Of a stretch of DNA of 64,000 bases, positions 19,205 through 50,702 are shown piece after piece (positions within the stretch are counted from its first letter, which is position 1; each line of letters opens with the position of its first letter). The notes below the pieces were generated by a model that did no database searches, had not been told where the DNA came from, and saw only the letters and a list, made by a program, of their open reading frames with translations. The DNA comes from Gemmatimonadaceae bacterium (GTDB taxonomy: Bacteria; Gemmatimonadota; Gemmatimonadetes; Gemmatimonadales; Gemmatimonadaceae): the NCBI GenBank assembly GCA_025358925.1, contig JANYHT010000033.1, forward strand, positions 124,001 to 188,000. The letters are read 5' to 3'. A program made the translations under genes and the position numbers.

Positions 19205-20569
19205 ATGCACCGTCAAAAGCGCGCGACTGTTGTGCTCGCGGCCATACTCGCTTCGTCCGTGTTCTTCGGGGCCTGTGTGCCTTCCGCGTCACGACAGGGG
19301 CTCACGCCTGTTGCCACGCTGCTCACCGAACGTGGGGCAGCGGCATCATCGCTCCTGCTCGCCGATTCTGTGCTCGGACCTCACGCGATCCCTGCAGGTC
19401 CGCTGGTATTAGACACGGCAGTGCGGATTGCTTTGTTGCGCAGTCCGCACGTGCGCGTGGTGCTGGCGGACGTTGGTCTTGCGGCGGCCGATCTTTGGCA
19501 GGCCAGTCGAATTCCCAATCCTGTCGTCGATCTACTCCGTGGATTTCAAAGCGGTGGCGGCGTTGGCATCACCAATGTTGGAATTGGTTTTTCCATCGTC
19601 GCCGCATTGCAGACACCGATGCGACGTCGTATCGCGCAAACTGAACTTCATAGTGCCGAACAACGCGTGGCCAACGCGGTTTACGACGCCATGATTGATG
19701 TGCAGCGCGCGTATGTGGACGTGCAGTACGCACAACAAAATTTGGAACTACAGCAATCGGTGGCCGTCGGCACCGCAGCATCGACCACAGTAGCGCAAGC
19801 GCTTCGTGCCGCAGGCAATGTGTCGGAACTGGCGCTGGCAAGCGAAGAGGCGGTATCGACGCAGAGTGTGGCTGACGTGTCAGCGGCCGAGTCGGCACTG
19901 TTGATCGCGCGCGCAGAACTTGGTCGGCGTCTTGGCGCTGGCGTCGGCGATACGCTGTGGACAATTGGGGAGCGACTTGCTGATCCGACGCTAGATCGTT
20001 TGGTGATCGCGCGCATCGATTCGCTGACAATTGCGCGTCGTCTTGACGTGGCAGCAGCGCGCGACCGTGCGCAGTCGGCCGCAGCGGCGCTCGGACTGAG
20101 TGCTCGGTTTCGTTTTTTGCAAGACGGCACGCTGGGCGCGTTTTGGGAGCGTGATCCAGACGGACGTTTTGTCGGGCCATCGGCGTCGATTCCGTTGCCG
20201 TTGTTTAACGGCGGCGGAGCGGGCGTTGCCAAAGCCCGTGCATCGCTGCAACAACGGACGGCAGAATACGATGCGCTCGTGGTCGATGCGCACGCTGAGG
20301 TGCGCGCCGCGATTGCACGCGTCGACGGTGCGCGACGCCGCGCGGTGCAGATTCGTACGGCTGTGTTGCCAACACGGCGCCGTGTGCTGCAAGAGTCGCA
20401 GTTGCAAGTGAACGCGATGGCGTTGCCGGTCTTCGCGCTGTTGCAAGCGAAGCAAGCGGAGATCGAAGCTGGTCGCATGTATCTCGACGCGCTGCGCGAC
20501 TATTGGGTTGCGCGCGCAGAGCTCGAACGCGCATCGGGTGGTTCGCTGCCCGCAGGGAGAGCGCCGTGA
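19205..20569 (+). CDS. TolC-type outer membrane efflux lipoprotein
   Basis: The protein of about 454 residues has a signal peptide with a lipobox (SVFFGACVPS) and two OEP repeats of TolC/CusC proteins, with long helical stretches such as LHSAEQRVANAVYDAMIDVQ and RASLQQRTAEYDALVV. Such proteins form trimeric channels that carry ions or drugs across the outer membrane. An ATG at 19196 gives three more residues; I prefer 19205 because of the putative promoter. It is coupled to the multicopper oxidase by a GTGA overlap. No inner membrane pump follows here, so its partner may be the CusBA system or another pump elsewhere. It is a second TolC in this copper region. Confidence 0.88.
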   Translation: MHRQKRATVVLAAILASSVFFGACVPSASRQGLTPVATLLTERGAAASSLLLADSVLGPHAIPAGPLVLDTAVRIALLRSPHVRVVLADVGLAAADLWQASRIPNPVVDLLRGFQSGGGVGITNVGIGFSIVAALQTPMRRRIAQTELHSAEQRVANAVYDAMIDVQRAYVDVQYAQQNLELQQSVAVGTAASTTVAQALRAAGNVSELALASEEAVSTQSVADVSAAESALLIARAELGRRLGAGVGDTLWTIGERLADPTLDRLVIARIDSLTIARRLDVAAARDRAQSAAAALGLSARFRFLQDGTLGAFWERDPDGRFVGPSASIPLPLFNGGGAGVAKARASLQQRTAEYDALVVDAHAEVRAAIARVDGARRRAVQIRTAVLPTRRRVLQESQLQVNAMALPVFALLQAKQAEIEAGRMYLDALRDYWVARAELERASGGSLPAGRAP

Positions 20570-21987
20570 ACGACGAAGAAAGAACGATGTCGCGTCGCGA
20601 GATGATGCGGCAGAGTGCCGCGACGATTGCGGGTGGCGCCGTCGCGCTCGGCGCTGCTCCAGTGTTTGCACAAGATCATTCGCAAATGTCGGGCATGCAG
20701 ATGAAGGCGATGCCGAAGGTGCAGCCAACCAATCCGGCGCGCGGCAAAGTGCGGCTGGGGAAAGCCGCGAGTCCGGGTATGCCTGGACACGATTACACGC
20801 CGGTGATCGTGCCAAACGGTCGCACCCTGCCGTTTCGCGTGGTGAACGGTGTGAAGGTGTTTCATCTCGTCGCGGAAGTCGTCAAGCACGAATTTGCACC
20901 GGGCCTGGTGTCGGAGTGCTGGGGCTACAATGGCGACACGCCCGGTCCAGTGATTGAAGCCGTCCAAGGCGAGCGCGTGCGCATTTACGTGACGAATCAT
21001 TTGCCGGAGCCCACGACGGTGCACTGGCATGGCATCATCTTGCCTTCCGGCATGGACGGTGTGTCGGGACTGAGCCAAGCACCGATTCCGGTGAACGCCA
21101 CGTTCAAGTACGAATTTGTCTTGCCGGATCACGGCACGTTCATGTACCACACGCATCACGATGAGATGGTACAGCAGGGACTCGGATTGATGGGCATGTT
21201 CGTTGTGCATCCCCGCGATCCCGTAAGGCGTCCGCAGCGCGACTTCGTGCTGTTGTCTGCCGAATGGTTGGTGCGCATCGGATCATCGCGTCCCGATCCG
21301 AACGAGATGGTGGACTTCAACGTTTTTACATTCAACGGCAAGGCGTATCCTGCGACGGAGCCGCTACAAATGCAGTTGGGTGAGCGCGTGCGCATTCGTT
21401 TCGGCAATCTCAGCGCGATGAGTCATCATCCAATTCATGTTCACGGATTGCGGTGGCGCGTCGTGGCGACGGACGGCGGCGACATTGCGGAAGCTGGCCA
21501 ATGGCCGGAGTCGACTGTGCTCGTGCCTGTTGGCACAACGCGTACGGTTGAATTTATGGCGGACAATCCGGGCGACTGGGCCGTGCACTGTCACATGACG
21601 CATCACGTGATGAATCAGATGGGGCACAACGGAACGAACCTGATTGGCGTGGACGCGGAGAAAGTCGATGCGGCCGTCGGCACGTTGCTGCCGAGTTACA
21701 TGACGATGGGCAGTGCAGGCATGAGCGGGATGAGCAGCATGGGCATGCCGTCGCCGAAAGGGTCGATCTCGATGTTGGGTGGTGCAGGTCCGCACGGCGC
21801 GATTGATATGGGCGGCATGTTTACCGTGCTCAAGGTTCGAGAGCACTTGCCGAAGGGCGGCGATCCTGAGTGGTATGTCAATCCGCCGGGCACGGTGGCT
21901 GATGAAGCCACGGCTGATGAACTCAAGCGTGATGGCGTGGTGGTTGGCGCGGCGGTGACGACGCCGATGCACAAGCATTCGCCGTAG
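20566..21987 (+). CDS. Multicopper oxidase (CopA/CueO-type laccase-like), Tat-exported
   Basis: The 473-residue protein holds all four copper motifs of multicopper oxidases: TVHWHGI, MYHTHHDEM, HHPIHVHG and VHCHMTHHVMNQM. The N-terminus SRREMMRQSAATIAGGAVALG is a twin-arginine-type signal. Met-rich stretches flank the core (SQMSGMQMKAM at the N-terminus, AGMSGMSSMGM near the C-terminus), as in copper-tolerance oxidases. The start is a GTG at 20566 within the tolC stop (GTGA) after GGGAG; ATG 20587 is the alternative. It probably oxidises Cu(I) in the periplasm, consistent with CopC, CopD and CopB-like genes nearby. Confidence 0.93.
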   Translation: MNDEERTMSRREMMRQSAATIAGGAVALGAAPVFAQDHSQMSGMQMKAMPKVQPTNPARGKVRLGKAASPGMPGHDYTPVIVPNGRTLPFRVVNGVKVFHLVAEVVKHEFAPGLVSECWGYNGDTPGPVIEAVQGERVRIYVTNHLPEPTTVHWHGIILPSGMDGVSGLSQAPIPVNATFKYEFVLPDHGTFMYHTHHDEMVQQGLGLMGMFVVHPRDPVRRPQRDFVLLSAEWLVRIGSSRPDPNEMVDFNVFTFNGKAYPATEPLQMQLGERVRIRFGNLSAMSHHPIHVHGLRWRVVATDGGDIAEAGQWPESTVLVPVGTTRTVEFMADNPGDWAVHCHMTHHVMNQMGHNGTNLIGVDAEKVDAAVGTLLPSYMTMGSAGMSGMSSMGMPSPKGSISMLGGAGPHGAIDMGGMFTVLKVREHLPKGGDPEWYVNPPGTVADEATADELKRDGVVVGAAVTTPMHKHSP

Positions 21988-26885: not shown

Positions 26886-28946
26886 TTATGTGGGCGTCAG
26901 TTTCGTACGCTTGAGCAACAGCGCATTGATTGCCACGACAAGCGTGCTTCCGGACATAGAGAGCGCGGCGACTTCGGGGCTGAGTACGAAGGGATATAGA
27001 ACGCCGGCTGCGAGTGGAAATGCAATGGTGTTGTAGCCCACCGCCCACCACAGGTTCTGCCGCATTTTGCGGAGCGTCGCACGCGAGAGTTCAATGGCGG
27101 CAACGATGTCGTACGGATCACTTTTCATCAGCACGACATCGGCACTTTCCATTGCGACATCAGTGCCAGCACCAATAGCAAATCCAACATCAGCCTGTGT
27201 GAGTGCCGGTGCATCGTTCACACCGTCGCCCACCATCCCGACTTTTTTGCCGTTGCTCTGCAACGCTTTCACCTTCTCCGCTTTCTGTGCGGGCAATACA
27301 TCAGCCAGCACGATGTCGATGCCGAGATCCGCGGCGATGCGTTTCGCGGTGGCTGCGTTATCACCAGTCAACATCACGACTTCGATTTTCTGTTCGCGCA
27401 GTCGTGCGACGGTCGCTGTCGCTGTGGGTCGAATCGCATCAGCGATGGCGATGAGGCCGATCACTCGGCCCGCTTGTGCAACGTGCACGACGGTGCGACC
27501 ATCTCCTTGCAATCGTGTCGCATCGGCCTCGAGCGCACCGAGCGAGAATTTCTGCGTGTCCATCAACAATCGATTGCCGAGAAATACCGTGCCGCCAATT
27601 GTCTCGGCGCGTGCGCCCATGCCATCGAGGCTTTGAAATCCCGTTGGTGCCGTCACGGAAAGTTTTGCTGCGCGGCGTACAATCGCTTGCGCCAGTGGGT
27701 GATCAGATCCTTGCTCGACCGCGGCAGCAGCGATGAGCAGCGCATCCTCCGAAACGTTATCCGCCAGCACGAGGTCAACGACTTCGGGCTGCCCGACGGT
27801 GAGTGTACCGGTCTTGTCGAAGACAATCACGTTGAGTTTCGTCGCGTCTTCCAACGCCGCAGCATTCTTGAATAGAATGCCGTGCGTTGCGCCGAGCCCC
27901 GTTCCGACCATCACGGCCATTGGTGTGGCTAGTCCCAACGCGTCCGGACACGCAATCACAAAGACGGTGATGGTCATTGTCACGGCAAAGAGTAGTGGTT
28001 GTCCGATCCACCAGAACCAGACGGCAAAGGTGGCGAGGCCAATCACGATTGCCGCAATAACGAGCCACTGCGCCGCTTTGTCGGCAAGGAGTTGGGCTGG
28101 CGCTTTTGAGCTTTGCGCTTGTTGTACAAGCTTGACGATTTGCGCGAGCGCTGAGTCAGCGCCGACTTTGGTTGCTTTATAGCGAAAGCTGCCGCTCTTG
28201 TTGATGGTGGCGCCAATGACAGTGGATCCCGGATTCTTTTGGACTGGCATGGACTCGCCAGTCAGCATGGATTCGTCAACGAGTGAGTCGCCAGACTCAA
28301 TCGTTCCGTCAACGGGAATCTTGTTGCCGGGCCTGATGACGACAATTTCGCCTGCCACAACTTCCGCTGTTGGGACCTGAACTTCGACGCCGTTGCGCAG
28401 CACCGCCGCCATGGTGGGCGTGAGATTCATCAACGCCTTAATCGCGGACGATGCGCCGGCGCGTGCGCGCATTTCGAGCCAGTGGCCAAGCAGGATGAAG
28501 ACTAATAACACAGAGACTGCTTCGAAAAATTGACCTCCCGCTTCGAAGAAGAACGTGCTTCCGACGCTAAAGAGATATCCGGTGCCAACGCTGAGAACGA
28601 TCAGCGCGGACATTCCCAATACGCCCTTTCGAAGCTGGCGCCACGCCGAAACGAAAAACGGCCAGCTGGGATAGAGCACCGCGGCGCTTGCGAGAAAAAA
28701 GAGCCAGAGACCGAGTCTGACTCCGAACGGTGGAGTCGGTGGTGTGAAGACGCCGCCCATAGGGGCGTAGATGAAAATTGGTATCGTAAAGAACAAGCAG
28801 ATCCAGAAGCGATTGCGCATGTCGCGAACCATGGCGGACATGTCCTCACCACTGTGGCCCATGTCATGCGCCATGTCGGCGGCCATCGCGGGGGGCGCGT
28901 TTGGTGGCGCGTCATGCCCTTCGTGGACTTCGTGACCGGTGTTCAT
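26886..28946 (-). CDS. CopB-like P1B-type copper/silver ATPase with CPD motif
   Basis: The 686-residue P-type ATPase lacks an N-terminal HMA domain and instead has a His/Met-rich leader ([26 protein letters not shown]) as in CopB. It has eight membrane segments, the phosphorylation motif [20 protein letters not shown] and HP in GSDHPLAQ. The transmembrane metal motif is [12 protein letters not shown], where CopA has CPC and CopB has CPH, so the third residue is Asp. It probably exports copper or silver to the periplasm. The ATG at 28946 is preceded by GAGGTC. It lies 22 bases after ppk2 on the same strand. The metal specificity is uncertain because of the CPD triad. Confidence 0.9.
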
Positions 28947-30014: not shown

Positions 30015-30158
30015 ATGTCATGGTTGATCACGAACTGGTTCTGGCTGCTGATCTTTTTCGCATTCATCGCGATGCATCTCTTCGGCCATGGAGACCATGC
30101 GGGTCACGGCACGCACGACCAATCGTCGAAGCAACAGGGTAAGGACGCCGATGCTTAA
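30015..30158 (+). CDS. DUF2933-like small membrane protein
   Basis: The 47-residue protein has one membrane helix (residues 3-22) followed by a His-rich tail with HLFGHGDHAGHGTHDQ. This is typical of DUF2933 proteins, which travel with copper and heavy-metal resistance genes. The His clusters could bind metal at the membrane surface. A CACGGAGA ribosome site precedes the ATG. Its last 8 bases overlap the start of the next gene, also a small membrane protein. Role unknown; context suggests metal handling. Confidence 0.75.
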   Translation: MSWLITNWFWLLIFFAFIAMHLFGHGDHAGHGTHDQSSKQQGKDADA

Positions 30159-30420
30159 TCTCAAAGTGGTGAGTTGGTCTCTCGGGCTCTTGTCCGCGAT
30201 CAGCTTTGTTCTCTGTGTGATTTACGGACTTGTTGTACCGGAAAGCATGCATGCATCGCAATTTTTAGAGATAATACTGCCGGCGTTTAAATGGCTCTCC
30301 TTTTGGGGGTTTTGCTTAGGATTGCTGGAAAGCTTTCTGTATGGTGTGTACATCGGATTCGTCTTCGTGCCGATCTATAACGCGCTCAGTCGCCGCTGGG
30401 GTACGTCAACGAAACGGTAG
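30151..30420 (+). CDS. DUF5676-like small membrane protein
   Basis: The 89-residue protein has two hydrophobic segments, LNLKVVSWSLGLLSAISFVL and LSFWGFCLGLLESFLYGVYIGF, in the DUF5676 pattern found near metal resistance genes. The start ATG at 30151 overlaps the previous gene by 8 bases, indicating coupling. It is followed after 3 bases by the MFS transporter gene. The ORF upstream of 30151 is an extension with no family match. Function unknown. Confidence 0.7.
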   Translation: MLNLKVVSWSLGLLSAISFVLCVIYGLVVPESMHASQFLEIILPAFKWLSFWGFCLGLLESFLYGVYIGFVFVPIYNALSRRWGTSTKR

Positions 30421-31675: not shown

Positions 31676-32044
31676 TTAGCTCTTCTTTGCGAGCGTGTGA
31701 ATGTATTTCACCGTTGCTTCGATCTCGGCGGCTGTCAGCTTGTCCTTGAACGGCAACATATCGCCTTTGCCATTGGTGATAGCCGAGATAAACTCTTTGT
31801 GCTGGTGCGTTGCAAAGAATGTAGAATCGACAAACGTTGCAATGTTTTTGTACTGCTGGCGTGCCGCTTTGGTCGGAGCGCCCAAAACGCCGTGACACTG
31901 CTTGCAGTTTTTCGCATACAACGCTTTGCCGTCGACCTCTTGCGGCACCAGTATGGCTTGTTTCAAGCGGCTGCCGTGCAAAGGTGCGCGTAAACTGAAC
32001 ACGGCCGCTGCTGCGACAACCATTGAAAGCGAGAATACGTTCAT
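31676..32044 (-). CDS. Small exported cytochrome c
   Basis: The 122-residue protein has a signal sequence of about 20 residues and one heme site, CKQCH, in LYAKNCKQCHGVLGAP, with a later Met ligand candidate in GKGDMLPFKDKLT. It is a class I cytochrome c of about 100 residues in mature form. It is the last gene of the minus-strand run Rieske, cytochrome b/c, cytochrome-porin, cytochrome c, lying 60 bases after the cytochrome-porin gene. It could be the soluble periplasmic electron carrier between the outer membrane cytochrome-porin and the bc-type complex. Confidence 0.9.
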   Translation of the reverse strand: MNVFSLSMVVAAAAVFSLRAPLHGSRLKQAILVPQEVDGKALYAKNCKQCHGVLGAPTKAARQQYKNIATFVDSTFFATHQHKEFISAITNGKGDMLPFKDKLTAAEIEATVKYIHTLAKKS

Positions 32045-32104
32045 GGGGATGTACCTGAGTTGAAATGGATAGGGATCACGTCGTTGTATCGCGGCGACGG
32101 TATG

Positions 32105-33298
32105 CTAGAACGCTACGAAGAGTTGGAATGAAATACCGTTTCTTCGCGGAGCGCGCGTAAGCTGCGGTAAGTCGCGAAAATACTCTACGCCGAGACGTAG
32201 ATATTCAGGTAAGGTTGCCGGTATCACGCTGCCCACGACGACGCGACGCAATCCGTCGTCGGATTCGTTACGGTTGGGGTCGAGAAATTCGTAGCGCCCA
32301 AATACGGTCCAGTGAGTCTTCGGCATGGAATATCCGCCGTATACCCAGTACCCAGAGCCAGTCGCGGTGACGCTTGTAATTGCTGTCGTCAGCGGTAGGC
32401 GTGAATCATTGCTGTAGACATATCCACCCAGCACTTCAAAAGGGCCGAGAAATTTGTTCGCCGTCGCGGCAAGCCTGTAATAGCGCGAAGACAAATCAGC
32501 AGCGGTTGCATCGAGCCCTGCGATGCGCCCGAAGTATCCGATTGCAGTAACGCCAGAACCAGCGTCATCCCACATAAACTGATTTGAAATCAGCACATCG
32601 TTTTTTGTGCTTGCTCCACCTTCTGAGCCATCAGACGTCGGAGCGCTCAAGCCATTGAGTATCTGAACGGACGTTCGGTTTTTTCCACCAATGACATAAA
32701 AGGCTTCAACTCCTGCTTGATCGCCAGCAAAACGAAACGGAATACCAGCAGTCGTTGGCTCGGCGAGCGGTAACGGCACAAGAATACCGGTCGGACGGTC
32801 GAAGCCCGCGAGCGCACCACCAACAAGCAAGTGTCCCGTTCCAGCACGAACGCCGCCGTACCCGCCTTCTTTACCCCACACGCCGCTCACAATCGCTACG
32901 AGATCCACGTTGCCTGCTTCTTGACGTTCAAGTTCGAAGTATGCCCCGTAGTTTTTGCCGAGACCGCCCGCTGCGAAGACGCTTACGGCGGGTGATGAAA
33001 GTCCATTTACATCCGCGGGTTCGCGTTGCGTTTTGGAAAGGCTGTACTGAAGAATGCCGCGCGTGGAGAAATACTCTTCCATCTTTTTGACTTCCATATT
33101 TTCACCGATCTCGTTCGGCATTCGGTAGCCAGCCCATTTAAACGAAAATCCGGTTGCGTTCAGTCGCGGGACCGCTGGGTAATGGCAACTAGCACACTTC
33201 ATGTTGTATTTTCTCGCCCACGCCGGAAGCGCTGCGCTTGTTTCGGGTGCAAGCGCGATCAGAGTTAGAGCAGTGAGCACGAGGGTGCTTTGGCGCAT
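32105..33298 (-). CDS. Cyc2-like fused monoheme cytochrome c / outer membrane porin
   Basis: The 397-residue protein has a signal peptide (about residues 1-22), one heme site CASCH at residues 35-39 and, after it, the family-like run LNATGFSFKWAGYRM. The rest (about 60-397) is made of alternating hydrophobic and polar strands with loops, ending in QLFVAF, a terminal aromatic typical of beta-barrels. This layout, one N-terminal heme plus a porin barrel, is that of Cyc2, the outer membrane Fe(II) oxidase. The ATG at 33298 (MRQSTLVLTALTLIALAP) is taken; the long upstream extension is not coding. It lies between a bc-type complex and a small cytochrome c. Iron oxidation is an inference. Confidence 0.72.
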   Translation of the reverse strand: MRQSTLVLTALTLIALAPETSAALPAWARKYNMKCASCHYPAVPRLNATGFSFKWAGYRMPNEIGENMEVKKMEEYFSTRGILQYSLSKTQREPADVNGLSSPAVSVFAAGGLGKNYGAYFELERQEAGNVDLVAIVSGVWGKEGGYGGVRAGTGHLLVGGALAGFDRPTGILVPLPLAEPTTAGIPFRFAGDQAGVEAFYVIGGKNRTSVQILNGLSAPTSDGSEGGASTKNDVLISNQFMWDDAGSGVTAIGYFGRIAGLDATAADLSSRYYRLAATANKFLGPFEVLGGYVYSNDSRLPLTTAITSVTATGSGYWVYGGYSMPKTHWTVFGRYEFLDPNRNESDDGLRRVVVGSVIPATLPEYLRLGVEYFRDLPQLTRAPRRNGISFQLFVAF

Positions 33299-33359
33299 GC
33301 GACGATCTCCACGGTGAATCGAGACACAAACAACAAACAGAGCAGGCGCGTTGCCTGCG

Positions 33360-34934
33360 CTACTGAGTGGGTTGCTTACGTGCATTTGTTGACGCACTTT
33401 TTTCGTTCTTCGTTGCACCCGCAGCACCGTCGGATTTTTGCAGATCTGGAAAGGTGTCGTGTATTTGCGGTGTAATTTCTGCGCCTGGTGATCCTCTGAG
33501 CGTCGCGAGATAACGAGAGACCTCTTCAATTTCTTGGTGACTAAGTACGGGTGACCCGAACGCGGCCATTCGAGAATTCGGATGGAAGCGACGGGGTTCT
33601 TCGATGAAGCTGTGTAGCCACGCCGTGGTGTGGTGCGCCCCGATTTGCATGAGTGCTGGACCTTCATCGCCTCCCTTGTTCATTACGACGTGGCATCCCA
33701 AACATTGGCGTTGAAACAGTGCACGTCCCGCGCGTTCGGCTGAGCTCAGCTGCCGCCCTGTTTCTGGCGCAATCGTGGGTTGTACGTCTCGTACGGCCGC
33801 TCCAACAAGAAGCGCGGAGCCGCCGAGCAAAACGGAGAGCGCAGCGAGACTGCCGGGCCGATGGAGAAGATTTCGACGGCTGCCGCGATCAAAAAACGGC
33901 AGACCGAGTAGCGCGATTACGAGTAGTAGCGGGACACCGACTGCAATAGTGCTTTCCATCGAGCCCGGAAACAGCTTTAGCAACTGATAAAAGGGGAGAA
34001 AGTACCATTCAGGATGCGGGATGTACGAAGAGTCACTCGGATCGGCTGGAGGCTCGAGCGGCGCGCCAACGGTCACCGCCAAGATCAGTACAGCGAGCGC
34101 CACGACGAGCGACGTGATGACGTCCTTGGCAATGATGTCGGGCCAAAATCGTACGCCCGTATGTTTTGACGCTGCGTACGCGGTGCCGTAGTACGCTGGA
34201 TATACCGGGTCGCTTGTCCGCTTCGGCGCCTTGTCCTCGAGCACGTCAGTACGAGGCGCAATGCCTTGCCGTACTACAAGCATGAGGTGGAGCAGTAAGA
34301 GCGCGGCGAACAACACCGGCAGCCACAGCACATGGAACGCGTAAAACCGCGTAAGCGTCGCTGCGCCGAGTTGTGAGCCACCTTTCAGCATTTTGGCCAT
34401 CGCGCCGCCTATCCATGGCGTTGTGCCCGCGATGCTCGTACCGACCTGTGTCGCCCAATACGCCTTCTGATCCCACGGCAAAAGTGAGCCGGTAAATCCG
34501 AAACCAAGTACGAGAAAGAACAGTCCTACGCCAAAGAGCCAGTTGGCTTCGCGCGGATATTTGTACGCACCCATGCTGAAGACGCGGATCATATGCGCCA
34601 GCACAAACACGACCATCAAACTCGCGCCCCAGCGATGCATTGCACGCAGCAATACGCCGGCGTTTACCTCGCGCTGCACATACTGAATGCTTTCGTATGC
34701 ATGGTCTGGCGTAGGTGCGTAGAACGTGGCAAGCACGAGGCCCGTGACCACTTGAATAAGAAAAGCAGTCATGGCGGCACTTCCCAGCGTGTGCCACCAC
34801 GTCAACCGATCTGGAACTTCGCGGTCTAAGAGCGTGCGCCGAATGCCGACCACGTCAATGCGTTGGTCAAGCCAGCCGCGTTTCACCGATGACGTCGCGG
34901 AGTCGTTCGATAAAGGTGGAACTACATCGCTCAT
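33360..34934 (-). CDS. Cytochrome b/c fusion subunit of a bc-type quinol oxidoreductase
   Basis: The 524-residue protein has a cytochrome b domain (about residues 30-350) with heme-ligand His100, His114, His201 and His216, and the quinol-site PEWY at 308-311. A membrane segment then leads to a cytochrome c domain with CLGCH at 411-415 and Met456 as axial-ligand candidate. A Pro/Lys/Ala-rich tail follows. It is the core of a bc1 or b6f-like complex, electrons going from quinol to the Rieske protein and cytochrome c. Its ATG overlaps the Rieske stop as ATGA. The following gene is the fused cytochrome-porin. Confidence 0.93.
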   Translation of the reverse strand: MSDVVPPLSNDSATSSVKRGWLDQRIDVVGIRRTLLDREVPDRLTWWHTLGSAAMTAFLIQVVTGLVLATFYAPTPDHAYESIQYVQREVNAGVLLRAMHRWGASLMVVFVLAHMIRVFSMGAYKYPREANWLFGVGLFFLVLGFGFTGSLLPWDQKAYWATQVGTSIAGTTPWIGGAMAKMLKGGSQLGAATLTRFYAFHVLWLPVLFAALLLLHLMLVVRQGIAPRTDVLEDKAPKRTSDPVYPAYYGTAYAASKHTGVRFWPDIIAKDVITSLVVALAVLILAVTVGAPLEPPADPSDSSYIPHPEWYFLPFYQLLKLFPGSMESTIAVGVPLLLVIALLGLPFFDRGSRRNLLHRPGSLAALSVLLGGSALLVGAAVRDVQPTIAPETGRQLSSAERAGRALFQRQCLGCHVVMNKGGDEGPALMQIGAHHTTAWLHSFIEEPRRFHPNSRMAAFGSPVLSHQEIEEVSRYLATLRGSPGAEITPQIHDTFPDLQKSDGAAGATKNEKSASTNARKQPTQ

Positions 34935-35464
34935 GTCTCGACCTTTTCAGGAACGCCACTGCGAAACGTCTGGTAAATGACGTGCAGTTCTCCGTTCTCT
35001 ACTTTGACCGGGAGCGTGTCGAGTGCGCGGGGTGGTGGGCCGCCGATCACGGCTCCTGTTTTCATGTCGAACAGTCCGTGGTGACACGGACAGTGATAGC
35101 GCGATTTGTCGGCGTCGAAGTTGTAGCCGCATCCGAGATGCGTGCAAATGCCGCTATAGGCGGTGAATTTTGCGCCGTCTTCGGTATACAACCACACTGA
35201 TCGTAAAGCGCGACTTTCCACCCACGCATCATTCGCAACTTCAACAAAGTCGACTTTGATGGGAACGCCTACGTCGAGCGTGCTGATATCATCAGCGACC
35301 TTCACCCAACTTTTCGGTGACACCTTGCGTAACGCTGGGGCTAAAAATGCCGCGAGCGCTGGAGTTCCAATCACCGTGGCAGCGATTGCGGCACCGATCC
35401 CACTCGCCCACGTAAGAAACCGGCGTCTGCGCATCACATCGTGGTCGGGTAGTGCATCAGACAT
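34931..35464 (-). CDS. Rieske iron-sulfur subunit of the bc-type complex
   Basis: The 177-residue protein has a twin-arginine-like start (RRRRFLTWASG), a membrane helix (about residues 18-42) and the Rieske [2Fe-2S] motifs CTHLGC and CPCHHG. It pairs with the cytochrome b/c fusion to form a quinol oxidising complex. The ATG at 35464 (MSDALPDHDV) is preferred over the upstream open frame. Its stop overlaps the cytochrome b start. It lies 52 bases after cusA on the same strand, so transcription may read through from the Cus genes. Confidence 0.93.
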   Translation of the reverse strand: MSDALPDHDVMRRRRFLTWASGIGAAIAATVIGTPALAAFLAPALRKVSPKSWVKVADDISTLDVGVPIKVDFVEVANDAWVESRALRSVWLYTEDGAKFTAYSGICTHLGCGYNFDADKSRYHCPCHHGLFDMKTGAVIGGPPPRALDTLPVKVENGELHVIYQTFRSGVPEKVET

Positions 35465-35516: not shown

Positions 35517-38500
35517 TCATGGCGTTGATGCTGCGACCACTTTGAGTGATGGGGCCGATGCAAGCACACCAACGGCCGAGCGTTTTCGCACATCGTTCGC
35601 AAGCGCCCACTGCTTCCAGAGTGAGTAAATCGCGGGGATGACTAAGAGCGTGAGTGCGGAGCTTGAGATCATTCCACCAACCATTGGTGCAGCGATGCGC
35701 TTCATGACACTGGCACCCGCTCCGTTCCCCCAAAGAATCGGAAGCAGCCCAGCCATAATCGCCGTAACGGTCATCATTTTCGGTCGTACGCGTTCAACGG
35801 CGCCTTCCATTACCGCGGCGTACAGATCGTTAACGTCAGCGTTTTCTCGGGCTGCCTGTTTGGCCTTCCACGCTTGGTCGAGATAAATCAGCATCACGAC
35901 GCCCGTCTCGGCCGCCACACCATTAAGTGCGATGAAGCCAATCGCCACCGCGACAGACCAGTTGTAACCAAGCAACCAGACGAACCAAATGCCGCCAACT
36001 AACGCGAATGGGAGCGAGAGCATGACGATGAGCGTCTCGCCAATACTCTTGAAGTTGAAATAGAGCAGTAGAAAAATGATGGCCAACGTTGCCGGGATCA
36101 CGAGCATCATCTTCGCCTGCGCGCGCTGCATGTACTCGTACTGACCACTCCATACCATGCTGTATCCCGCGGGCATCGTGACCGCGCGCGCAACTTCGCG
36201 CTGGGCCTCCGCGACATAGCCGCCGATGTCGCGTCCGACGACATCGACATACACCCACGCCGTTGGCACTGCGCCTTCCGTGCGAACCACCATCGGACCA
36301 GAAACTTGTTTGATGGTGGCAACTTGCCCGAGCGGCACTTGAGCAACATTGCCCGCCATGGCAGAACCACCCATCGCACCGCTCGCTGGCCGCGCGGGCA
36401 TCGCGCCACGTCCGACATCGGCACCTCCAGCACCATGGCTGACGGGCACGAGTACCGCAGCGAGTCGCTCTGGCGTGTCACGCAACTCCAAGGGATAGCG
36501 GACACGCACGCCATAGCGTTCGCGTCCTTCCACTGTTTGCGTAATCGTCATTCCACCAATCGCGGTAGCGATCACGGCCTGTACATCACCGACGTTCAAT
36601 CCATGTCGCGCTGCGGCGACGCGATCAATATCGATGTCGAGGTAATATCCGCTGGCCGCTCGTTCGGCGAACGCACTTCGCGTTCCCGGCACCGTTTGTA
36701 CCGATTTTTCGACCTCTTTCCCGATGCGTTCCAACTCAGTGAGATCCGGACCGAAGATCTTGATGCCAACGGGTGTTCGAATGCCAGTGGCCAGCATGTC
36801 GATGCGACCTTTGATTGGCATGGTCCAGGCATTCGTGACACCGGGCATTCGTGTTGCCGAGTCCATTGCGCCCAGCAAGCGATCGTAGGTCATGCCACGC
36901 CGCCATGTGTCGACCGGACGGAGCGTGATGGTGGTCTCGAACATGTCGAGACCTGCGGGATCGGTCGCGGTGTTTGCGCGACCCGCTTTGCCCCAGACGT
37001 GATCCACCTCGGGGAACGACTTTAAAATGGAGTCTTGTATCCGAAGGATTTCGCGGTCGCGCGCAACACTCGCACCAGGCAGTGTCGTTGGCATAAACAG
37101 AATGGTGCCTTCTTCGAGCGGCGGCATGAATTCGCTTCCGACCGAGGCCCACGGAATCCACGTGAGCACCAATACCACACCCGCTATTCCGATTACGGGC
37201 CAGCGGTGTCGCAGCACGAACGTGATCAACGGTCGATAAGCGCGAATCAACCAGCGGTTGACTGGGTTGGCCTGCTCACGCCAAATGCGGCCGCGAATAA
37301 AGACACCCATCGTCACCGGCACTAACGTCACGCTGAGCAGACTCGCCGCCGCCATGGCGAATGTTTTCGTGTATGCGAGCGGCTTGAATAGTCGCCCTTC
37401 CTGGCCTTCCAACGCGAAGACGGGAAGGAAGCTCACCGTGATAATGAGCAACGAGAAAAAAAGTGCGGGGCCGACTTCCTGCGCGCTTTCCACGACCACA
37501 CGCCAGCGCTCGATCGTTGTGAGCACACTCGCATCGAGCGTGCGCGCGTTCGATGTAAGCCCGCTTGCGCGCTCCTTCGCCGTGATTGCGCGCTCGAGGT
37601 GCTTGTGCATGTTCTCAATCATGACGATTGCCGCGTCGATCATCGCACCGATCGCGATCGCGATGCCACCTAACGACATGATGTCGGCGCCAACTCCTAC
37701 CCACCGCATGGCGATGAACGCGATGAGGATACCGATCGGCAGCGTGAGAATTGCCACGAGTGCAGAACGTGCATGCAGTAAAAAAATCACACACACAAAC
37801 GCGACGATGAGGCTTTCTTCGAGCAACTTGCCGCGCAGCGTTTCAATGGCGCGTTCGATCAGATCGGAGCGATCATATACGGGGCGCACAACGACGCCGG
37901 GTGGTAGCCCCTGTTGCACCAGTGCGAGTTTGGCCTTCACGTTCTTGATGGTTTCAAGCGCGTTTTGTCCAAAGCGCATGACGACGATTGCGCCAACCGC
38001 ATCTCCGCGCCCATCGAGCTCCGCAACGCCCCGCCGAACGCCCGGACCGATCGTCACTCGGCCCAGTTCTGCGATGCGGACTGGCGTGCCGTTCGGTGTT
38101 GCACCGACAACGACGTTTTCAATGTCGCTCAAGTTTTTCAGATAGCCCAGACCACGCACCATGTACTCACGTTCGGACAATTCCATGACCATAGCGCCGA
38201 TGTCGCTATTCGCACTTTGCAGCGCACTCATCACGCGCGTTACAGGAATGCGAAACGCCAACAACTTTGCTGGATCGAGATCGATCTGATACTGCTTCTC
38301 AAATCCGCCGATGGTTGCAACTTCAGAAACACCCGGCACCGCAGTCAACGCGTAGCGGAGATACCAATCCTGCAAGCTCCGCAATTGCGCCAAATTGAGA
38401 CGGCCTGTCGTGTCTTCGAGTGCGTACTGATACACCCATCCCAGTCCAGTCGCGTCAGGACCCAGCGTGGGCGTCACCACCGTTGGAAGTTTTCCTTTCA

Positions 38501-38849
38501 GGCCGTTCAAATACTCCAGCACGCGCGAGCGCGCCCAATACAAGTCTGTGCCGTCTTCAAAGATCACGTAGACGAACGACACACCGAAGAACGAATAGCC
38601 GCGGACGGTGCGAGCGCCGGGCACTTTCAGCATCTCTGCCGCCACGGGATACGTGACTTGATCCTCAACGATGCGTGGCGCTTGCTCGCTGTATTCGGTT
38701 TGCACAATGACTTGCACGTCGGACAGATCTGGCAGCGCTTCAAGTGGTGTGCGTCGTATCGCCCACGTGCCGCCGACAATTGCTGCGAACGTGAAGAGAA
38801 ACACCAGCAACTTGTTGTCGACGGACCACGCGATGATGCGCTTCAGCAT
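35517..38849 (-). CDS. cusA: CusA/HME-type RND heavy-metal efflux pump
   Basis: The 1110-residue protein is an inner membrane RND pump of the heavy-metal-efflux group. It has the N-terminal MLKRIIAWSVDNKLLV, the TM4 signature GAMIDAAIVMIENMHKHLE, typical of CusA-like Cu/Ag pumps, and large periplasmic loops rich in Met such as GGMTITQTVEG. An insert near residues 820-850 (GAGGADVGRGAMPARPASG) is unusual Gly/Ala-rich sequence. It forms a tripartite system with CusB and CusC, encoded just upstream in the order C-B-A. Copper or silver is the likely substrate from the TM4 motif; other divalent metals cannot be excluded. Confidence 0.94.
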   Translation of the reverse strand: MLKRIIAWSVDNKLLVFLFTFAAIVGGTWAIRRTPLEALPDLSDVQVIVQTEYSEQAPRIVEDQVTYPVAAEMLKVPGARTVRGYSFFGVSFVYVIFEDGTDLYWARSRVLEYLNGLKGKLPTVVTPTLGPDATGLGWVYQYALEDTTGRLNLAQLRSLQDWYLRYALTAVPGVSEVATIGGFEKQYQIDLDPAKLLAFRIPVTRVMSALQSANSDIGAMVMELSEREYMVRGLGYLKNLSDIENVVVGATPNGTPVRIAELGRVTIGPGVRRGVAELDGRGDAVGAIVVMRFGQNALETIKNVKAKLALVQQGLPPGVVVRPVYDRSDLIERAIETLRGKLLEESLIVAFVCVIFLLHARSALVAILTLPIGILIAFIAMRWVGVGADIMSLGGIAIAIGAMIDAAIVMIENMHKHLERAITAKERASGLTSNARTLDASVLTTIERWRVVVESAQEVGPALFFSLLIITVSFLPVFALEGQEGRLFKPLAYTKTFAMAAASLLSVTLVPVTMGVFIRGRIWREQANPVNRWLIRAYRPLITFVLRHRWPVIGIAGVVLVLTWIPWASVGSEFMPPLEEGTILFMPTTLPGASVARDREILRIQDSILKSFPEVDHVWGKAGRANTATDPAGLDMFETTITLRPVDTWRRGMTYDRLLGAMDSATRMPGVTNAWTMPIKGRIDMLATGIRTPVGIKIFGPDLTELERIGKEVEKSVQTVPGTRSAFAERAASGYYLDIDIDRVAAARHGLNVGDVQAVIATAIGGMTITQTVEGRERYGVRVRYPLELRDTPERLAAVLVPVSHGAGGADVGRGAMPARPASGAMGGSAMAGNVAQVPLGQVATIKQVSGPMVVRTEGAVPTAWVYVDVVGRDIGGYVAEAQREVARAVTMPAGYSMVWSGQYEYMQRAQAKMMLVIPATLAIIFLLLYFNFKSIGETLIVMLSLPFALVGGIWFVWLLGYNWSVAVAIGFIALNGVAAETGVVMLIYLDQAWKAKQAARENADVNDLYAAVMEGAVERVRPKMMTVTAIMAGLLPILWGNGAGASVMKRIAAPMVGGMISSSALTLLVIPAIYSLWKQWALANDVRKRSAVGVLASAPSLKVVAASTP

Positions 38850-38860
38850 GTCGTTCGCTC

Positions 38861-40135
38861 CTACCGCGCAGGCGGAGCGGGCGTGTTGCCCTTCGGCGTG
38901 TTGCCCTTCGGCGCGACCAACTTCGGCGGAGCGGGGGCGGCGATCTGCATGCCCGGCATGTTGCCCATGCCGCCAATTGCCGAACCGAGATTCGATTCTG
39001 CATCGACGAGGAATGTCGCCGAGGCGACCACGGATTCTCCCGCACGTAGCCCGCGAAGAATTTGGATCCGCGTTTCGTTCGCTGTGCCAACAACAACTTC
39101 TCGCGGCGTCAGCGCTCCCTCTGCGCCATGCACGAAAACCAAATCGCGCGTGCCCGTTGATAGCAGCGCGGCACGCGGGAGATTAAGCACGTTCGCACCG
39201 TTCGCGCTTTCGACACGAATAGTGGCGTACATTCCCGGTTTGAGCGCAAAGTCCCGATTGGCCATTGCCACTCGAATGCGCGCTGTTCGCGTATCAGCGT
39301 TAATGGTCGGATAGATGTAGGTGATGCGGCCGGTCCGCGTTGCACCAGGAATTGCTTGAAACTCAGCGTGTACTACTTGGCCGGCATGAACCGTGGCGAG
39401 ATCACGTTCAAACACTTCGCCTTCAATCCAGACAACACTGAGATCTGCCACTTTATAGAGCGCGTCTCCGGCCATGACTTTTTGCCCAGACAGCACATTT
39501 TTTTCGACGACCACTCCACTCACCGGCGCACGCAGCACTACGGACTTTTGAATTTGTCCCGTCTGCTCAATCCGCTCTATATCAGTCGCCGAGATATCCC
39601 AGTATTGCAGACGTTTGCGGGCGGCGTCACGAAGCGCGGTCGCGTTGCGTTGCGCCTCGGTTGTTGCACCGGCAACATCCTTCTGCAGCTGAGCCGCCAG
39701 CAGCAACTCCTGTTGCGCGGCGACGAGCATCGGCGAGTAAATAGACAGCAGCGGATCGCCCGCGCGAACCGATTGACCCGTGTAGTTCACGAAGAGTTCG
39801 TCGATCCATCCGTCGAGTTTTGGTGCAATCACGCGGACACGCGTTTCGTCGTAATTGACCTGCGCGACTGTGCGTACCTCGGTCACGAGCGCGCTCATGA
39901 CGGCCGTGGTGTATGTCACGCCGATGCGCTGGGCCTGGTCGCGCGTAAGCATCACCGGTTGCGCTCCCTTGGTTGGCGCTGCTGCGTCGCCGTCCAGAGT
40001 GGCAGCGGTAACGATGGGACGCCTTGTCGCGAACCAGGCAAAAAGCGCGGCGGCGGCCAACGCGAGTACGATTACGATGGCGATTGTCGCGCGTGAAACA
40101 CGCGATGACTGTGCGCTGCCAAATGGATCAGTCAT
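38861..40135 (-). CDS. cusB: CusB-like membrane fusion protein (HlyD family)
   Basis: The 424-residue periplasmic adaptor has an N-terminal membrane segment (ATIAIVIVLALAAAALFAWFA), a lipoyl-like part (IYSPMLVAAQQELLLAAQLQ, LRAPVSGVVVEKNVLSGQ) and the barrel parts IEGEVFERDLATVHAGQVV and LKPGMYATIRVES. It links CusA to the outer channel. A Pro/Gly/Thr-rich tail with repeated APKGNTPKGNTP closes the protein; the DNA there repeats the unit gttgcccttcggc (38885-38921). The start ATG overlaps the CusC-like stop by one base (TAATG), and the stop lies 11 bases before cusA. Confidence 0.92.
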   Translation of the reverse strand: MTDPFGSAQSSRVSRATIAIVIVLALAAAALFAWFATRRPIVTAATLDGDAAAPTKGAQPVMLTRDQAQRIGVTYTTAVMSALVTEVRTVAQVNYDETRVRVIAPKLDGWIDELFVNYTGQSVRAGDPLLSIYSPMLVAAQQELLLAAQLQKDVAGATTEAQRNATALRDAARKRLQYWDISATDIERIEQTGQIQKSVVLRAPVSGVVVEKNVLSGQKVMAGDALYKVADLSVVWIEGEVFERDLATVHAGQVVHAEFQAIPGATRTGRITYIYPTINADTRTARIRVAMANRDFALKPGMYATIRVESANGANVLNLPRAALLSTGTRDLVFVHGAEGALTPREVVVGTANETRIQILRGLRAGESVVASATFLVDAESNLGSAIGGMGNMPGMQIAAPAPPKLVAPKGNTPKGNTPAPPAR

Positions 40136-41538
40136 TACTCGCGACCCGGTAGCAGAATGGGCGCTGCGTGCGCGTCGAATAATTGGCGTCCAATAAGCAT
40201 TTCTAGGTCCGCAAATGTTTTCCCTTGCTCGGCGTCGAGAACGAAGAGCTCTTGCTGATACCGATTCACCGTCATTTGGTTGTCCAGCAGTGTCATTAAA
40301 TTCACCTGCCCCACGCGGTACGCGGCGAGTGATGAGCCAACCGCCGCCTGTGCTTGCGGAATGATCGTACTGCGATAGAGTCGGCCAAGGTTTCGTGCAC
40401 GCACAACGGTTGCATACCGTTCGGCCACGAGAGCGCGTGTCTGCGCGCGCATCGACTGCAGTTCCGCGCGCACCATGGCGTTCATTGCTTGGGACTCTTC
40501 GCGCATTTTGAGCTGCCGACTTCTCGCGAAGACGGGTAGCGTTGCACCAAGCATCAGACTTCCCATACGCTCGCGCTGCATCACGCCGGCGCGTTCGCCG
40601 TATTGAATACCGACCTGCAGATCGGGCCAGATCTCTTTCGCCGCCAGTTTCGTCGCGGCATCAGCGGCGCGGACGTCTGCAAGACCAGCACGAATCATCG
40701 GACGATTCTGATCAGCGAGCGCCATCAGAGAATCGAGTGTCGGCAGCGTCGCGGGAAAATTTGGCAACTGGGGAGACGCGAGCGTGGAGTCGGGCACGCG
40801 ATCCAACAGTCCGGCAATCATGGCGGTGGCGGCGACACGCATCGTACGCATGCGCACGATGTCCTCTGACATTTTTGCAGATTCCACATGCGCCTTGAGT
40901 ACATCAGATTGGCGCCCATCGCCGACTGCATACATGGTCTGTGCGGTCGAGGCGATGTTTTCAAGCAACCGCTGCGTTGTAATGGCGACCACCAGCGAGC
41001 GGTCCGCTTGAAAGAGGTCATAAAATGCCATGGCGACACGGCTGCGGACCTCCCACCGCACGTCAGCTACGCGCTCACCTGCGGCATCCGCCTGCGCGGA
41101 CGACACGCGTCCGGCCAGCGTTAGTTTGCCCGCGACCGGCACCATTTGCATGAATTGCAATTGCGTCATGCCCAGCGGATCCATCGGCGCCAGTGACGGA
41201 AGCGAACGATTCATCAAGCCGAGCTGTAGCTGTGGGTCTGGTGGCCGCTTCGTGCCCGGCACACGAGCCGCCGCTGCTCGCGCAATCGCTCGGGCCGCCG
41301 TGATCTGCGGATTTCGTTGCTCGACAATATCGTATAGCGTTCCAAGTCGGAGCGCCGTTGTGTCATCCTGTGCGGAGGGCACACGAATAAAGGTTGTGTC
41401 GATCTGCGCAGGTGCGGCTTGCGCAACAGAAACCGTGCAAAATGTCGTACAGATTGCCACAAAAATGATTCGACTTCCACGTGACTCCCATTCACGGAGA
41501 CAAGTGACGGAGGAACAGTTGCTCGCGCGTCGAATCAT
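40135..41538 (-). CDS. cusC: CusC/TolC-type outer membrane channel protein
   Basis: The 467-residue protein has a signal sequence (IIFVAICTTFCTVSVAQA) and two OEP domains with long helices (ARAIARAAAARVPG; MREESQAMNAMVRAELQSMR). It has no clear lipobox. It is the first gene of the CusC-B-A operon and forms the outer membrane channel of the pump. The start ATG at 41538 is the natural one. It is different from the TolC-type lipoprotein at 19205. The upstream 289-base gap to the divergent PaaK-like gene holds the promoter; TTGTGTGCGTACAA at about 41560 is a weak dyad in it. Confidence 0.9.
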   Translation of the reverse strand: MIRRASNCSSVTCLREWESRGSRIIFVAICTTFCTVSVAQAAPAQIDTTFIRVPSAQDDTTALRLGTLYDIVEQRNPQITAARAIARAAAARVPGTKRPPDPQLQLGLMNRSLPSLAPMDPLGMTQLQFMQMVPVAGKLTLAGRVSSAQADAAGERVADVRWEVRSRVAMAFYDLFQADRSLVVAITTQRLLENIASTAQTMYAVGDGRQSDVLKAHVESAKMSEDIVRMRTMRVAATAMIAGLLDRVPDSTLASPQLPNFPATLPTLDSLMALADQNRPMIRAGLADVRAADAATKLAAKEIWPDLQVGIQYGERAGVMQRERMGSLMLGATLPVFARSRQLKMREESQAMNAMVRAELQSMRAQTRALVAERYATVVRARNLGRLYRSTIIPQAQAAVGSSLAAYRVGQVNLMTLLDNQMTVNRYQQELFVLDAEQGKTFADLEMLIGRQLFDAHAAPILLPGRE

Positions 41539-46609: not shown

Positions 46610-47488
46610 TTAGTGCTTCGCGCCTACCTGGATCACGTACGACGTGCGCGAAACATCCCACTCGTTCGCCGCGCCGCCGTTTTTATGACTCGCGTACGCG
46701 GATCGCAACATCCACGGCCCTGCTTTTGTGAGCGGTAAATGTACGATGCCTTTTGCGTCCGCATTGACCGTTACAATCAACTTCGCTGCGGTTGCATCTG
46801 CTCCCGCTGTGGTATCCGCCGCCGGCAAAGCGTCGATACCAATGTTTGGCACTGGCTTGCCACCGCCCAGTACGGCGATGTGTAGCGTATCACCGACATG
46901 GAGATGTGCTGGGTCATTCACAGGCACGAACTCCAATGGAAACCCGGCCGTTTTTGAGAAAGCGCGCGGGCCGTCGGCGCCGACTTGGACGACGGTCGCA
47001 GCGTATGATGTGGCGGTATAGATGACGGTATCGAGCCCGGCGAGCGGTTTCTCACGCTCTAGACGTGCCGCTTCCGACACGCCGCTCTCGGTACGCAGAA
47101 AGCGAATCACGCCCTCTGGCGGAGTGCGCAACGTACGCGGCGTAAGGCGTATAGCGACTAGGTACTGACCCGCTGTCGTGGGTTTGTGATGCATCCGCAG
47201 CGATGTCCCTTCGACGGACATATCAGTGATCTTCATGTCAGACGACGCGCCGATGATCCGGGCGTCGATAATGCGTGCTGCCTCGATGGCGCGTCCTTCC
47301 GGGAATCGCGTTCCCTGTCGGCCGCCGACGTGTATGGATGTATTTGCGGGGAACGCGAACATATCGGGCAGCAGCCAGTAATCGTGTCCCGCCGCCTTCG
47401 AGGCCAAGAATACACTGGCGCCGATCGCGAATGCGCGCGCGGCAGTCCGTGCGCGAGCGGAGAAGGAGGAGGAGGCGTAGAGCGACAT
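46610..47488 (-). CDS. DUF4198-like exported protein
   Basis: The 292-residue protein has a signal sequence (AFAIGASVFLASKAAGHDYW) and a DUF4198-type beta-rich body, HDYWLLPDMFAFPANTS being the typical mature start. His, Asp and Met residues are frequent. DUF4198 proteins are found near metal (nickel, cobalt, copper) transport genes. The ATG at 47488 (MSLYASSSFS) was chosen because the long upstream open frame is the reverse of the neighbouring gene. It is divergent from the CDCC propeller/TlpA unit. Confidence 0.8.
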   Translation of the reverse strand: MSLYASSSFSARARTAARAFAIGASVFLASKAAGHDYWLLPDMFAFPANTSIHVGGRQGTRFPEGRAIEAARIIDARIIGASSDMKITDMSVEGTSLRMHHKPTTAGQYLVAIRLTPRTLRTPPEGVIRFLRTESGVSEAARLEREKPLAGLDTVIYTATSYAATVVQVGADGPRAFSKTAGFPLEFVPVNDPAHLHVGDTLHIAVLGGGKPVPNIGIDALPAADTTAGADATAAKLIVTVNADAKGIVHLPLTKAGPWMLRSAYASHKNGGAANEWDVSRTSYVIQVGAKH

Positions 47489-47603
47489 GAGATTTGCGGG
47501 TGCAAAGAGGTGAGACAGCGGGTTCAGTCTTGCGATGATATTTACGCACGGTAAAATACGATACGTCCTCCCACGCCGCTCGACCACCGTTTCAGCAAAC
47601 TTT

Positions 47604-48836
47604 ATGATCAAGCCTGCACTCGTGCTTTTGGCCGTGGTCTCCAGCTTCGTAGCCGTTACAACACGGAACAGCGCACAAGCTCCCTCGCTTGCACCATTTA
47701 CAATCGACAGTATCGCGAGTCCGACCGGCCCAGGCAGCGCGGAACCGAATCTGACAGTCGCGGCCGATGGTCGCGTGTACATGAGTTGGCTGCAATCGTC
47801 CGATTCGGGCTCTGCACTTCGATTCGCCGTGCACGATGGCGCGCGGTGGTCCGCCGCCCGCACGATTGCCGCGAGTCGCGACTTCTTTGTTAACTGGGCC
47901 GATTTTCCGTCGATCGAAGTGCTCGACAGCACGCATCTCGCAGCGCATTGGTTGCAACGCAATGGTCGCAGCACGTACGCGTACGGCGTTCGTATCGCGC
48001 AATCGAACGACGGTGGTGTGACGTGGCGTGCCCCGCTCACGCCGCATCGTGATTCAACGCAAACAGAACATGGGTTTGTGGCGATGTGGCACGAAGGCAC
48101 AACGCTGAGCGCGGCGTGGCTTGATGGTCGCAAGTTCAGCAAAGAGGGGCACGATCCGTCGAACGAAATGTCATTGGTCACTGCAACCGTGTCACCCAAC
48201 GGCACGCGCGGACCGGAGGTGCGTTTGGACGAGCGCACCTGCGATTGTTGCCAGAACGCGGCGGCCGTGACAAGCACCGGTCCAATTGTTGCCTATCGTA
48301 ATCGATCGACTGACGAGATACGCGACGTTTACTTGACGCGTCGCGTTGCCGGCACATGGATCGCCGGCGTTCCGGTGAACAATGATCGCTGGAAGATTGC
48401 CGCGTGTCCCGTGAATGGTCCGGCCATTGCAGCACGCGGACATCGGGTTGCACTCGCGTGGTTTACTGCACCGAACGACAGCGCCCGTGTCAACGTCGCA
48501 TTCTCTGACAACGATGGCGCAACGTTTGGCAAACCAACGCGCGTGGACGGCGGCGATCCCGCCGGACGAGTGGATGTGTCATTACTCGCGGACGGGGGTG
48601 CGTTGGTGACGTGGGTTGAGCGTACCGGGGGCGATGTTGCACAGGTTCGTGCGCGTCGCGTGAATCGTGATGGTAAGGGGGGCGCGGTGGTCACCATTGC
48701 CTCTTCTTCCGCAGCGCGCGCCAGTGGATTTCCGAAATCCGTTGTGACCGGAACGAACGTGGTGTTCGCGTGGACGTTGGCCGGGAAACCATCGGTCGTG
48801 CGCGTGGCCCGTGCGTCGCTCTCGGAGTTCAAGTGA
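47604..48836 (+). CDS. Exported sialidase-like beta-propeller with CDCC motif
   Basis: The 410-residue protein has a signal peptide (ALVLLAVVSSFVAVTTRNSA) and a sialidase-type propeller with Asp-box-like turns (SNDGGVTWRAP, SDNDGATFGKP). A compact Cys motif, RTCDCCQNAAAV, sits in the middle and a further Cys occurs in KIAACPVNGPA, four Cys in all. Catalytic Arg triads of real sialidases are not obvious, so enzymatic activity is doubtful. The stop forms TGATG with the tlpA-like gene. The Cys set and the thioredoxin neighbour suggest a disulfide or metal function. Confidence 0.82.
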   Translation: MIKPALVLLAVVSSFVAVTTRNSAQAPSLAPFTIDSIASPTGPGSAEPNLTVAADGRVYMSWLQSSDSGSALRFAVHDGARWSAARTIAASRDFFVNWADFPSIEVLDSTHLAAHWLQRNGRSTYAYGVRIAQSNDGGVTWRAPLTPHRDSTQTEHGFVAMWHEGTTLSAAWLDGRKFSKEGHDPSNEMSLVTATVSPNGTRGPEVRLDERTCDCCQNAAAVTSTGPIVAYRNRSTDEIRDVYLTRRVAGTWIAGVPVNNDRWKIAACPVNGPAIAARGHRVALAWFTAPNDSARVNVAFSDNDGATFGKPTRVDGGDPAGRVDVSLLADGGALVTWVERTGGDVAQVRARRVNRDGKGGAVVTIASSSAARASGFPKSVVTGTNVVFAWTLAGKPSVVRVARASLSEFK

Positions 48837-50589: not shown

Positions 50590-50702
50590 CAGCGGCTCCG
50601 GTGCACGAGATATTTTATGGCGGCTAAAACGAGGCACGTATTATGCACTTCAGGCGTTTTGCTCACGTACCACCGGAAGCAAACTTCCCGCTGGAGATCA
50701 GA

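Follow-up and report, generated by a model that had tools for sequence, protein, structure and literature searches.

A run of four genes on the minus strand probably encodes an outer-membrane electron conduit coupled to its own cytochrome bc complex, judging from sequence comparisons and a structural model. The run lies in a 64,000-nucleotide stretch of the genome of a Gemmatimonadaceae bacterium (GenBank assembly GCA_025358925.1, contig JANYHT010000033.1, positions 124,001 to 188,000), referred to here as the window, whose first letter is position 1. The candidate conduit is a fused monoheme cytochrome-porin, called below the porin-cytochrome, which motif, profile and model evidence places among the fused cytochrome-porins of the Cyc2 superfamily. 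The cassette, the motifs, the predicted fold, the kinship to Cyc2-like proteins and an exchange with MtrA/MtrB-type genes were computed here, and from them we infer conduction, its direction and its substrate.

The four-gene run

The first gene of the run encodes a Rieske [2Fe-2S] subunit of 177 residues (34931-35464; PF00355, E 3e-10) that carries the cluster ligands CTHLGC and CPCH and is conserved in the cassette. It shares 4 bases with the open reading frame (ORF) of a 524-residue fusion of cytochrome b and cytochrome c (33360-34934), in which Cytochrome_B and Cytochrom_B_C domains (PF00033, E 2e-51; PF00032) are followed by a C-terminal monoheme cytochrome c domain (PF13442). The b domain of this fusion is of the b6 type, and its HX13H pair at 100/114, its HX14H pair at 201/216, the PEWY motif and the CLGCH heme site (residues 411-415, 33690-33704) are all intact. 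The features that mark bc and b6f complexes are thereby present, namely the Rieske ligands, two heme b histidine pairs, PEWY and a cytochrome c partner. The porin-cytochrome of 397 residues (32105-33298) follows after 61 bases and, after a further 60, a small class I cytochrome c of 122 residues with a CKQCH site (31676-32044; PF13442, E 1e-12). Sequence, domains and motifs confirmed this arrangement, positions and gaps included, as the first-pass annotation had described it.

The start codon of the porin-cytochrome, an ATG at 33298, has a GGAG 8 bases before it and, by eye, a signal-peptide-like stretch after it, and the ORF can be extended upstream. The ORF is regarded as real and not a product of chance because it is conserved across 16 other genomes and because the cassette recurs: the Rieske subunit, the b/c fusion, the porin-cytochrome and the small cytochrome c occur together at 14 of 19 loci from many genera, with an altered gene order at loci L064 and L070.

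The porin-cytochrome and its relatives

Cyc2 proteins have been characterised by Keffer et al. (2021, PMC8406198) as having the consensus AXPXFAR[Q/K][T/Y], one CXXCH that is followed four residues later by PXL, and at least 365 residues. The N-terminus of the porin-cytochrome contains ALPAWARKY-NMK-CASCH-YPAV-PRL, and its precursor has 397 residues. The element ALPAWARKY (residues 23-31, 33206-33232) agrees with every specified position of the consensus except F, which is replaced by W27; the ortholog at L061, with AIPAFARKY, agrees fully. The heme c site CASCH (residues 35-39, 33182-33196), of which C35, C38 and H39 are invariant in 13 orthologs, is the only CXXCH, and PRL (residues 44-46, 33161-33169) stands four residues past it. 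The single N-terminal heme site and the aromatic C-terminus (Phe397) read from the sequence earlier are thus both present.

The porin-cytochrome had no match in Pfam, NCBIfam or the sequences of the PDB. Alignment of a profile of its orthologs by hhalign gave a probability of 97.9% (E 4e-13, 140 columns) with a Cyc2-like profile made of four Burkholderiales/Methylocystis and two Gemmatimonadota homologs, none of them a validated Cyc2. A tree of 51 Cyc2-like proteins, again built from homologs other than validated Cyc2 sequences, joined the orthologs in one clade with support of 100/100, separate from the RQTG type, which includes plasmid-borne Burkholderiales homologs. Against the homologs compared, validated Cyc2 not being among them, the orthologs are by this phylogeny a clade of their own. 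In two genomes an RQTG-type Cyc2 homolog adjoins the porin-cytochrome as a second one (L070, 4486-5952; L061, 7653-9002), and at L061 (2139-7137, genome G035) two multiheme cytochromes with 18 and 16 CXXCH sites stand beside both.

Of 395 Gemmatimonadota genomes, 17 carry orthologs; these score above 300 bits and, fragments of the same genes aside, everything else scores below 55. The window's protein is 44-74% identical to those of 16 other genomes, except for 100% identity in one of these, a near-identical twin genome. A scan of named genomes returned 13 ortholog loci, all in Gemmatimonadota metagenome-assembled genomes (MAGs), several of them from groundwater; it used two peptide patterns, which distant orthologs outside Gemmatimonadota may escape. 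A search of plasmids found five other Cyc2-like records and no ortholog of the porin-cytochrome. Loci L094 (G001) and L068 (G160), from different genera, carry proteins with identical starts, by recent transfer or as a stray contig in one MAG.

The barrel-like body that had been read from the sequence was borne out by structure prediction. AlphaFold (11 orthologs) gave a helical N-terminal domain followed by exactly 16 strands, which DSSP placed at residues 77-396 (32111-33070), with a predicted local distance difference test score (pLDDT) of 67 and a predicted template modelling score of 0.71. Foldseek matched the model to 16-strand porins including OmpT, PorB, OprP (2o4v) and OprO (4rjw). 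The longest (39 residues) and most conserved outer loop of the model, L3 between strands 5 and 6 (residues 155-193, 32720-32836; pLDDT below 50), contains the invariant residues H156, D167 and R168. In general porins, L3 constricts the channel. OprP and OprO are the porins named by Keffer et al. as structural templates of Cyc2 (PMC8406198), and the Cyc2-like layout proposed in the first-pass annotation is supported by motif, profile match and predicted fold together.

The Cyc2 proteins of Acidithiobacillus, Mariprofundus and Leptospirillum (Cyt572) share with the window's protein the N-terminal CXXCH, the element A-x-P-x-[F/W]-A-R-[K/Q]-[Y/T], the PxL spacing, the predicted OprP/OprO-type porin of 16 strands and a length above 365. 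In contrast to them, the porin-cytochrome has W for F and falls in a clade apart from the RQTG-type homologs compared; its gene stands in one run with those of the Rieske subunit, cytochrome b/c and cytochrome c, beside copper efflux genes, and this run is without rusticyanin, Cyc1 or oxidase genes. The iron-specific bc1 of Acidithiobacillus ferrooxidans is likewise reserved for a Cyc2 pathway (PMC5566968, PMC10654088); its operon, however, is separate from cyc2, whereas in the window b and c are fused and everything is in the same run.

Exchange with MtrA/MtrB-type genes and direction of electron flow

The b/c fusion family has orthologs in 32 of the 395 genomes, 13 of them also carriers of the porin-cytochrome. 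In genomes that lack the porin, the module of bc genes and small cytochrome c (bc family at 58-63% identity) adjoins an MtrA-type decaheme cytochrome at 14 loci, most of which also have an MtrB/PioB-type barrel beside the decaheme gene. Both decaheme proteins tested scored above the cut-off of TIGR03508 (2/2), and the MtrB-type proteins gave strong matches to TIGR03509 (E 1e-45 and 1e-57), yet below its curated cut-off. At L077 and L088 the decaheme gene lies some kilobases off, and at L080 another Cyc2-like gene stands at the module, the porin being absent. The tree of the b/c fusions requires at least three changes between the porin and the MtrA/MtrB type. Close relatives differ in their conduit, as do L070 and L085, and L064 is nested inside an MtrA/MtrB-type clade. 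The window's run has no MtrA/MtrB genes, and an MtrA-type decaheme cytochrome was rejected for the genome as a whole, in which nothing scored above the TIGR03508 cut-off.

MtrAB, MtoAB and PioAB systems thus hold, in sister Gemmatimonadota genomes, the place that the porin-cytochrome holds here beside the bc/cytochrome c module, although they comprise two proteins, ten hemes and a large barrel as against one protein and one heme. Because two structurally unlike conduits alternate beside one quinone-side module, the porin-cytochrome is likely to be an outer-membrane electron carrier as well, and among the comparisons made here this exchange is the best evidence for electron transfer by it across the outer membrane. 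At L083, L086, L089-L092 and other loci of L077-L093, the run that encodes the bc-type complex and its small cytochrome c also contains the genes of MtrA-type decaheme and MtrB/PioB-type proteins, and the bc module of these loci is a quinone link distinct from CymA, CbcL or ImcH. At L077 (5009-8188, genome G264), QrcA/QrcB-like genes for a multiheme cytochrome and a molybdopterin-like subunit are found immediately past the bc module.

The same exchange bears on the idea that the protein is an ordinary porin whose heme is structural and that the bc complex beside it is an unrelated one for housekeeping. The functions of the family are predicted from sequence and some genomes have the porin without nearby bc genes, as this idea would allow; the cassette recurs, however, and is repeatedly involved in exchange with MtrA/MtrB-type genes. 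A housekeeping role of the window's bc complex was rejected, since a different contig of the genome carries a second bc locus, so that the window's is not its sole complex III. An ordinary porin is accordingly held to be very improbable.

As a conduit, the porin-cytochrome would span the outer membrane as a barrel of 16 strands, plugged from the periplasmic side by its N-terminal monoheme domain. Its most likely use would be that a small dissolved reduced metal ion enters the barrel, reaches the heme at L3 and is oxidised there as in Cyc2. The small cytochrome c would ferry the electrons across the periplasm, the Rieske/cytochrome b-c complex would connect them with the quinone pool, and they would pass onward to terminal oxidases encoded elsewhere or, if the bc complex were driven backwards, to quinone. 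Two heme-copper oxidases are encoded in the window's genome outside the run. Inward flow from a metal donor is a reading of the genes that we rate a little short of even.

Several observations weigh against the coupled conduit as described. The members of the family all have predicted functions. The confidence of the model is moderate, with a pLDDT below 50 over large parts of the heme domain and L3, and a test for alternating hydropathy in the predicted strands found no significant excess over shuffled sequences. Loci L061, L065 and L072 carry the porin and cytochrome c with no bc genes nearby. A hairpin with a T-rich tail (33342-33358) lies inside the 61-base gap, such matches being no commoner than chance. 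RuBisCO is absent from the window's genome and present in only 2 of the 17 carriers, and outward electron flow is compatible with the genes nearly as well.

If electrons flowed outward, the bc complex would oxidise quinol and the small cytochrome c would pass the electrons through the porin-cytochrome to a surface acceptor, an oxidised metal such as Fe(III) or Mn(IV). The conduit that replaces the porin is of the MtrA/MtrB type, a family that serves metal reduction as well as oxidation, and ExtP, encoded in an operon for selenite/tellurite reduction, is similar to the b subunit (E 6e-65, below the cut-off). Outward flow also agrees with the scarcity of RuBisCO among the carriers and with the conservation of energy by a bc complex that runs forward. 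On the other side, characterised Cyc2 proteins are oxidisers, the window's cassette has no cell-surface multiheme cytochrome, and, as has been argued for Cyc2 (PMC8406198), a narrow barrel with just one heme is better matched to a donor that is small and dissolved than to an acceptor in mineral form. Outward conduction is for these reasons considered unlikely.

The first-pass annotation had proposed an electron path between the outside of the cell and the quinone pool, with iron as a possible donor. The exchange makes the conduit itself likely; an iron donor and an inward flow are conjectural. RuBisCO is missing from this genome and from 15 of the 17 carriers, so reverse flow through the bc complex for CO2 fixation is unsupported, and RuBisCO-based autotrophic iron oxidation was rejected for the window's genome. 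Photosynthetic reaction centres occur in three carriers, the window's genome not being one of them. We infer that the run may oxidise iron, and the neighbouring genes indicate copper at least as much.

Copper genes and the possible substrate

Immediately upstream of the run and in the same direction lie genes for a CusA-type Cu(I)/Ag(I) efflux pump of the resistance-nodulation-division family (35517-38849; TIGR00914, 1147.6 bits), a CusB-type periplasmic adaptor (38861-40135; PF16576, E 2e-77) and a CusC-type outer membrane efflux protein (40135-41538; PF02321, E 2e-28). Compared with CusA in the PDB (3t51, 3k07), the pump retains Met at three positions which we take to be the copper-binding ones. 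Since cusCBA precedes the Rieske ORF in the same direction with a gap of 52 bases, all seven genes may be transcribed together; across the region, promoter-like and terminator-like sites were not above chance. Elsewhere, the window encodes two P1B-type ATPases, a multicopper oxidase on the plus strand (20503-21987; PF07732, PF07731; TIGR01480 at E 1e-44, below its cut-off) and a DUF305 protein (50643-51440). One of the ATPases, of the copper family with a His-rich N-terminus (26886-28946, minus strand; TIGR01511, 596 bits, above the cut-off), has a CPD instead of the usual CPC motif. DUF4198 (46610-48277) and DUF5676 (30088-30420) proteins also belong to this metal-rich stretch.

The association extends beyond the window. 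Within about 10 kb, copA or cusA was found at 10 of 18 porin loci and at none of 18 porin-less loci of the same bc family (Fisher 3e-4, a value too small because related loci are not independent), over mean stretches of 15.7 and 14.4 kb, respectively. Genomes have about 3.6 genes of the CusA family and 4.2 for copper ATPases (about 8 together), from which some 4% of loci would be expected by chance. Porin lineages with differing copper genes at differing distances show the same association. Near eight porin loci and at no MtrA/MtrB-type locus there is a family of possibly copper-binding lipoproteins, marked by a GCMM lipobox and by a C-terminal helix rich in Met. Among its genes are those at L062 (898-1515), L064 (4344-5411), L065 (10953-11651), L066 (11196-11918), L067 (7532-8473) and L068 (10995-11594), and the family is also present at L094, where genome G001 has a second, partial bc copy, and absent from this window.

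These neighbours would suit a role in copper handling, in which the porin-cytochrome, at the outer membrane or within it, would oxidise Cu(I) to the less toxic Cu(II) and pass the electrons into respiration, as a respiratory counterpart of CueO/CopA. CueO and CopA share with it a copper gene neighbourhood including CusCBA; they are multicopper oxidases using O2, whereas the window's protein would be a heme-porin feeding the respiratory chain. Metal genes nevertheless cluster in islands for reasons besides a common chemistry, some porin loci have no copper genes, and the literature searched yielded no Cyc2 relative that oxidises Cu(I). Copper handling is judged improbable overall. The specific form in which the porin-cytochrome is co-transcribed with CusCBA and oxidises outer-membrane Cu(I), its electrons reaching the bc complex of the run or oxidases through cytochrome c, would likewise be a long shot.

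The earlier remark that iron oxidation or electron uptake is not described for this lineage was too strong. Cyc2 homologs are known from Gemmatimonadota MAGs described as heterotrophic and without carbon fixation (PMC9769843) and from single cases (PMC10367259, PMC13055281), and MtrCAB from one member of the Gemmatimonadetes (PMC8805035). The role of Cyc2 homologs beyond the known iron oxidisers is called an open question in PMC8406198. Full-text searches, covering literature other than subscription journals and preprints and, for most papers, abstracts and term matches, returned no account of the clade, the cassette, the conduit exchange or the copper link, all four of which appear to be new, whereas Cyc2 homologs in Gemmatimonadota were already known.

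In conclusion, a distinct clade of the Cyc2 superfamily is paired with its own quinone-side complex in one run, and its natural exchange with MtrA/MtrB-type genes provides independent genetic support for a conduit role. The copper neighbourhood turns the question of the substrate into a concrete one, Fe(II) versus Cu(I) on one small protein, and a Cu(I)-oxidising porin-cytochrome, if real, would join copper detoxification with energy conservation. Through this run, as its genes suggest, a Gemmatimonadota bacterium may oxidise dissolved metals.

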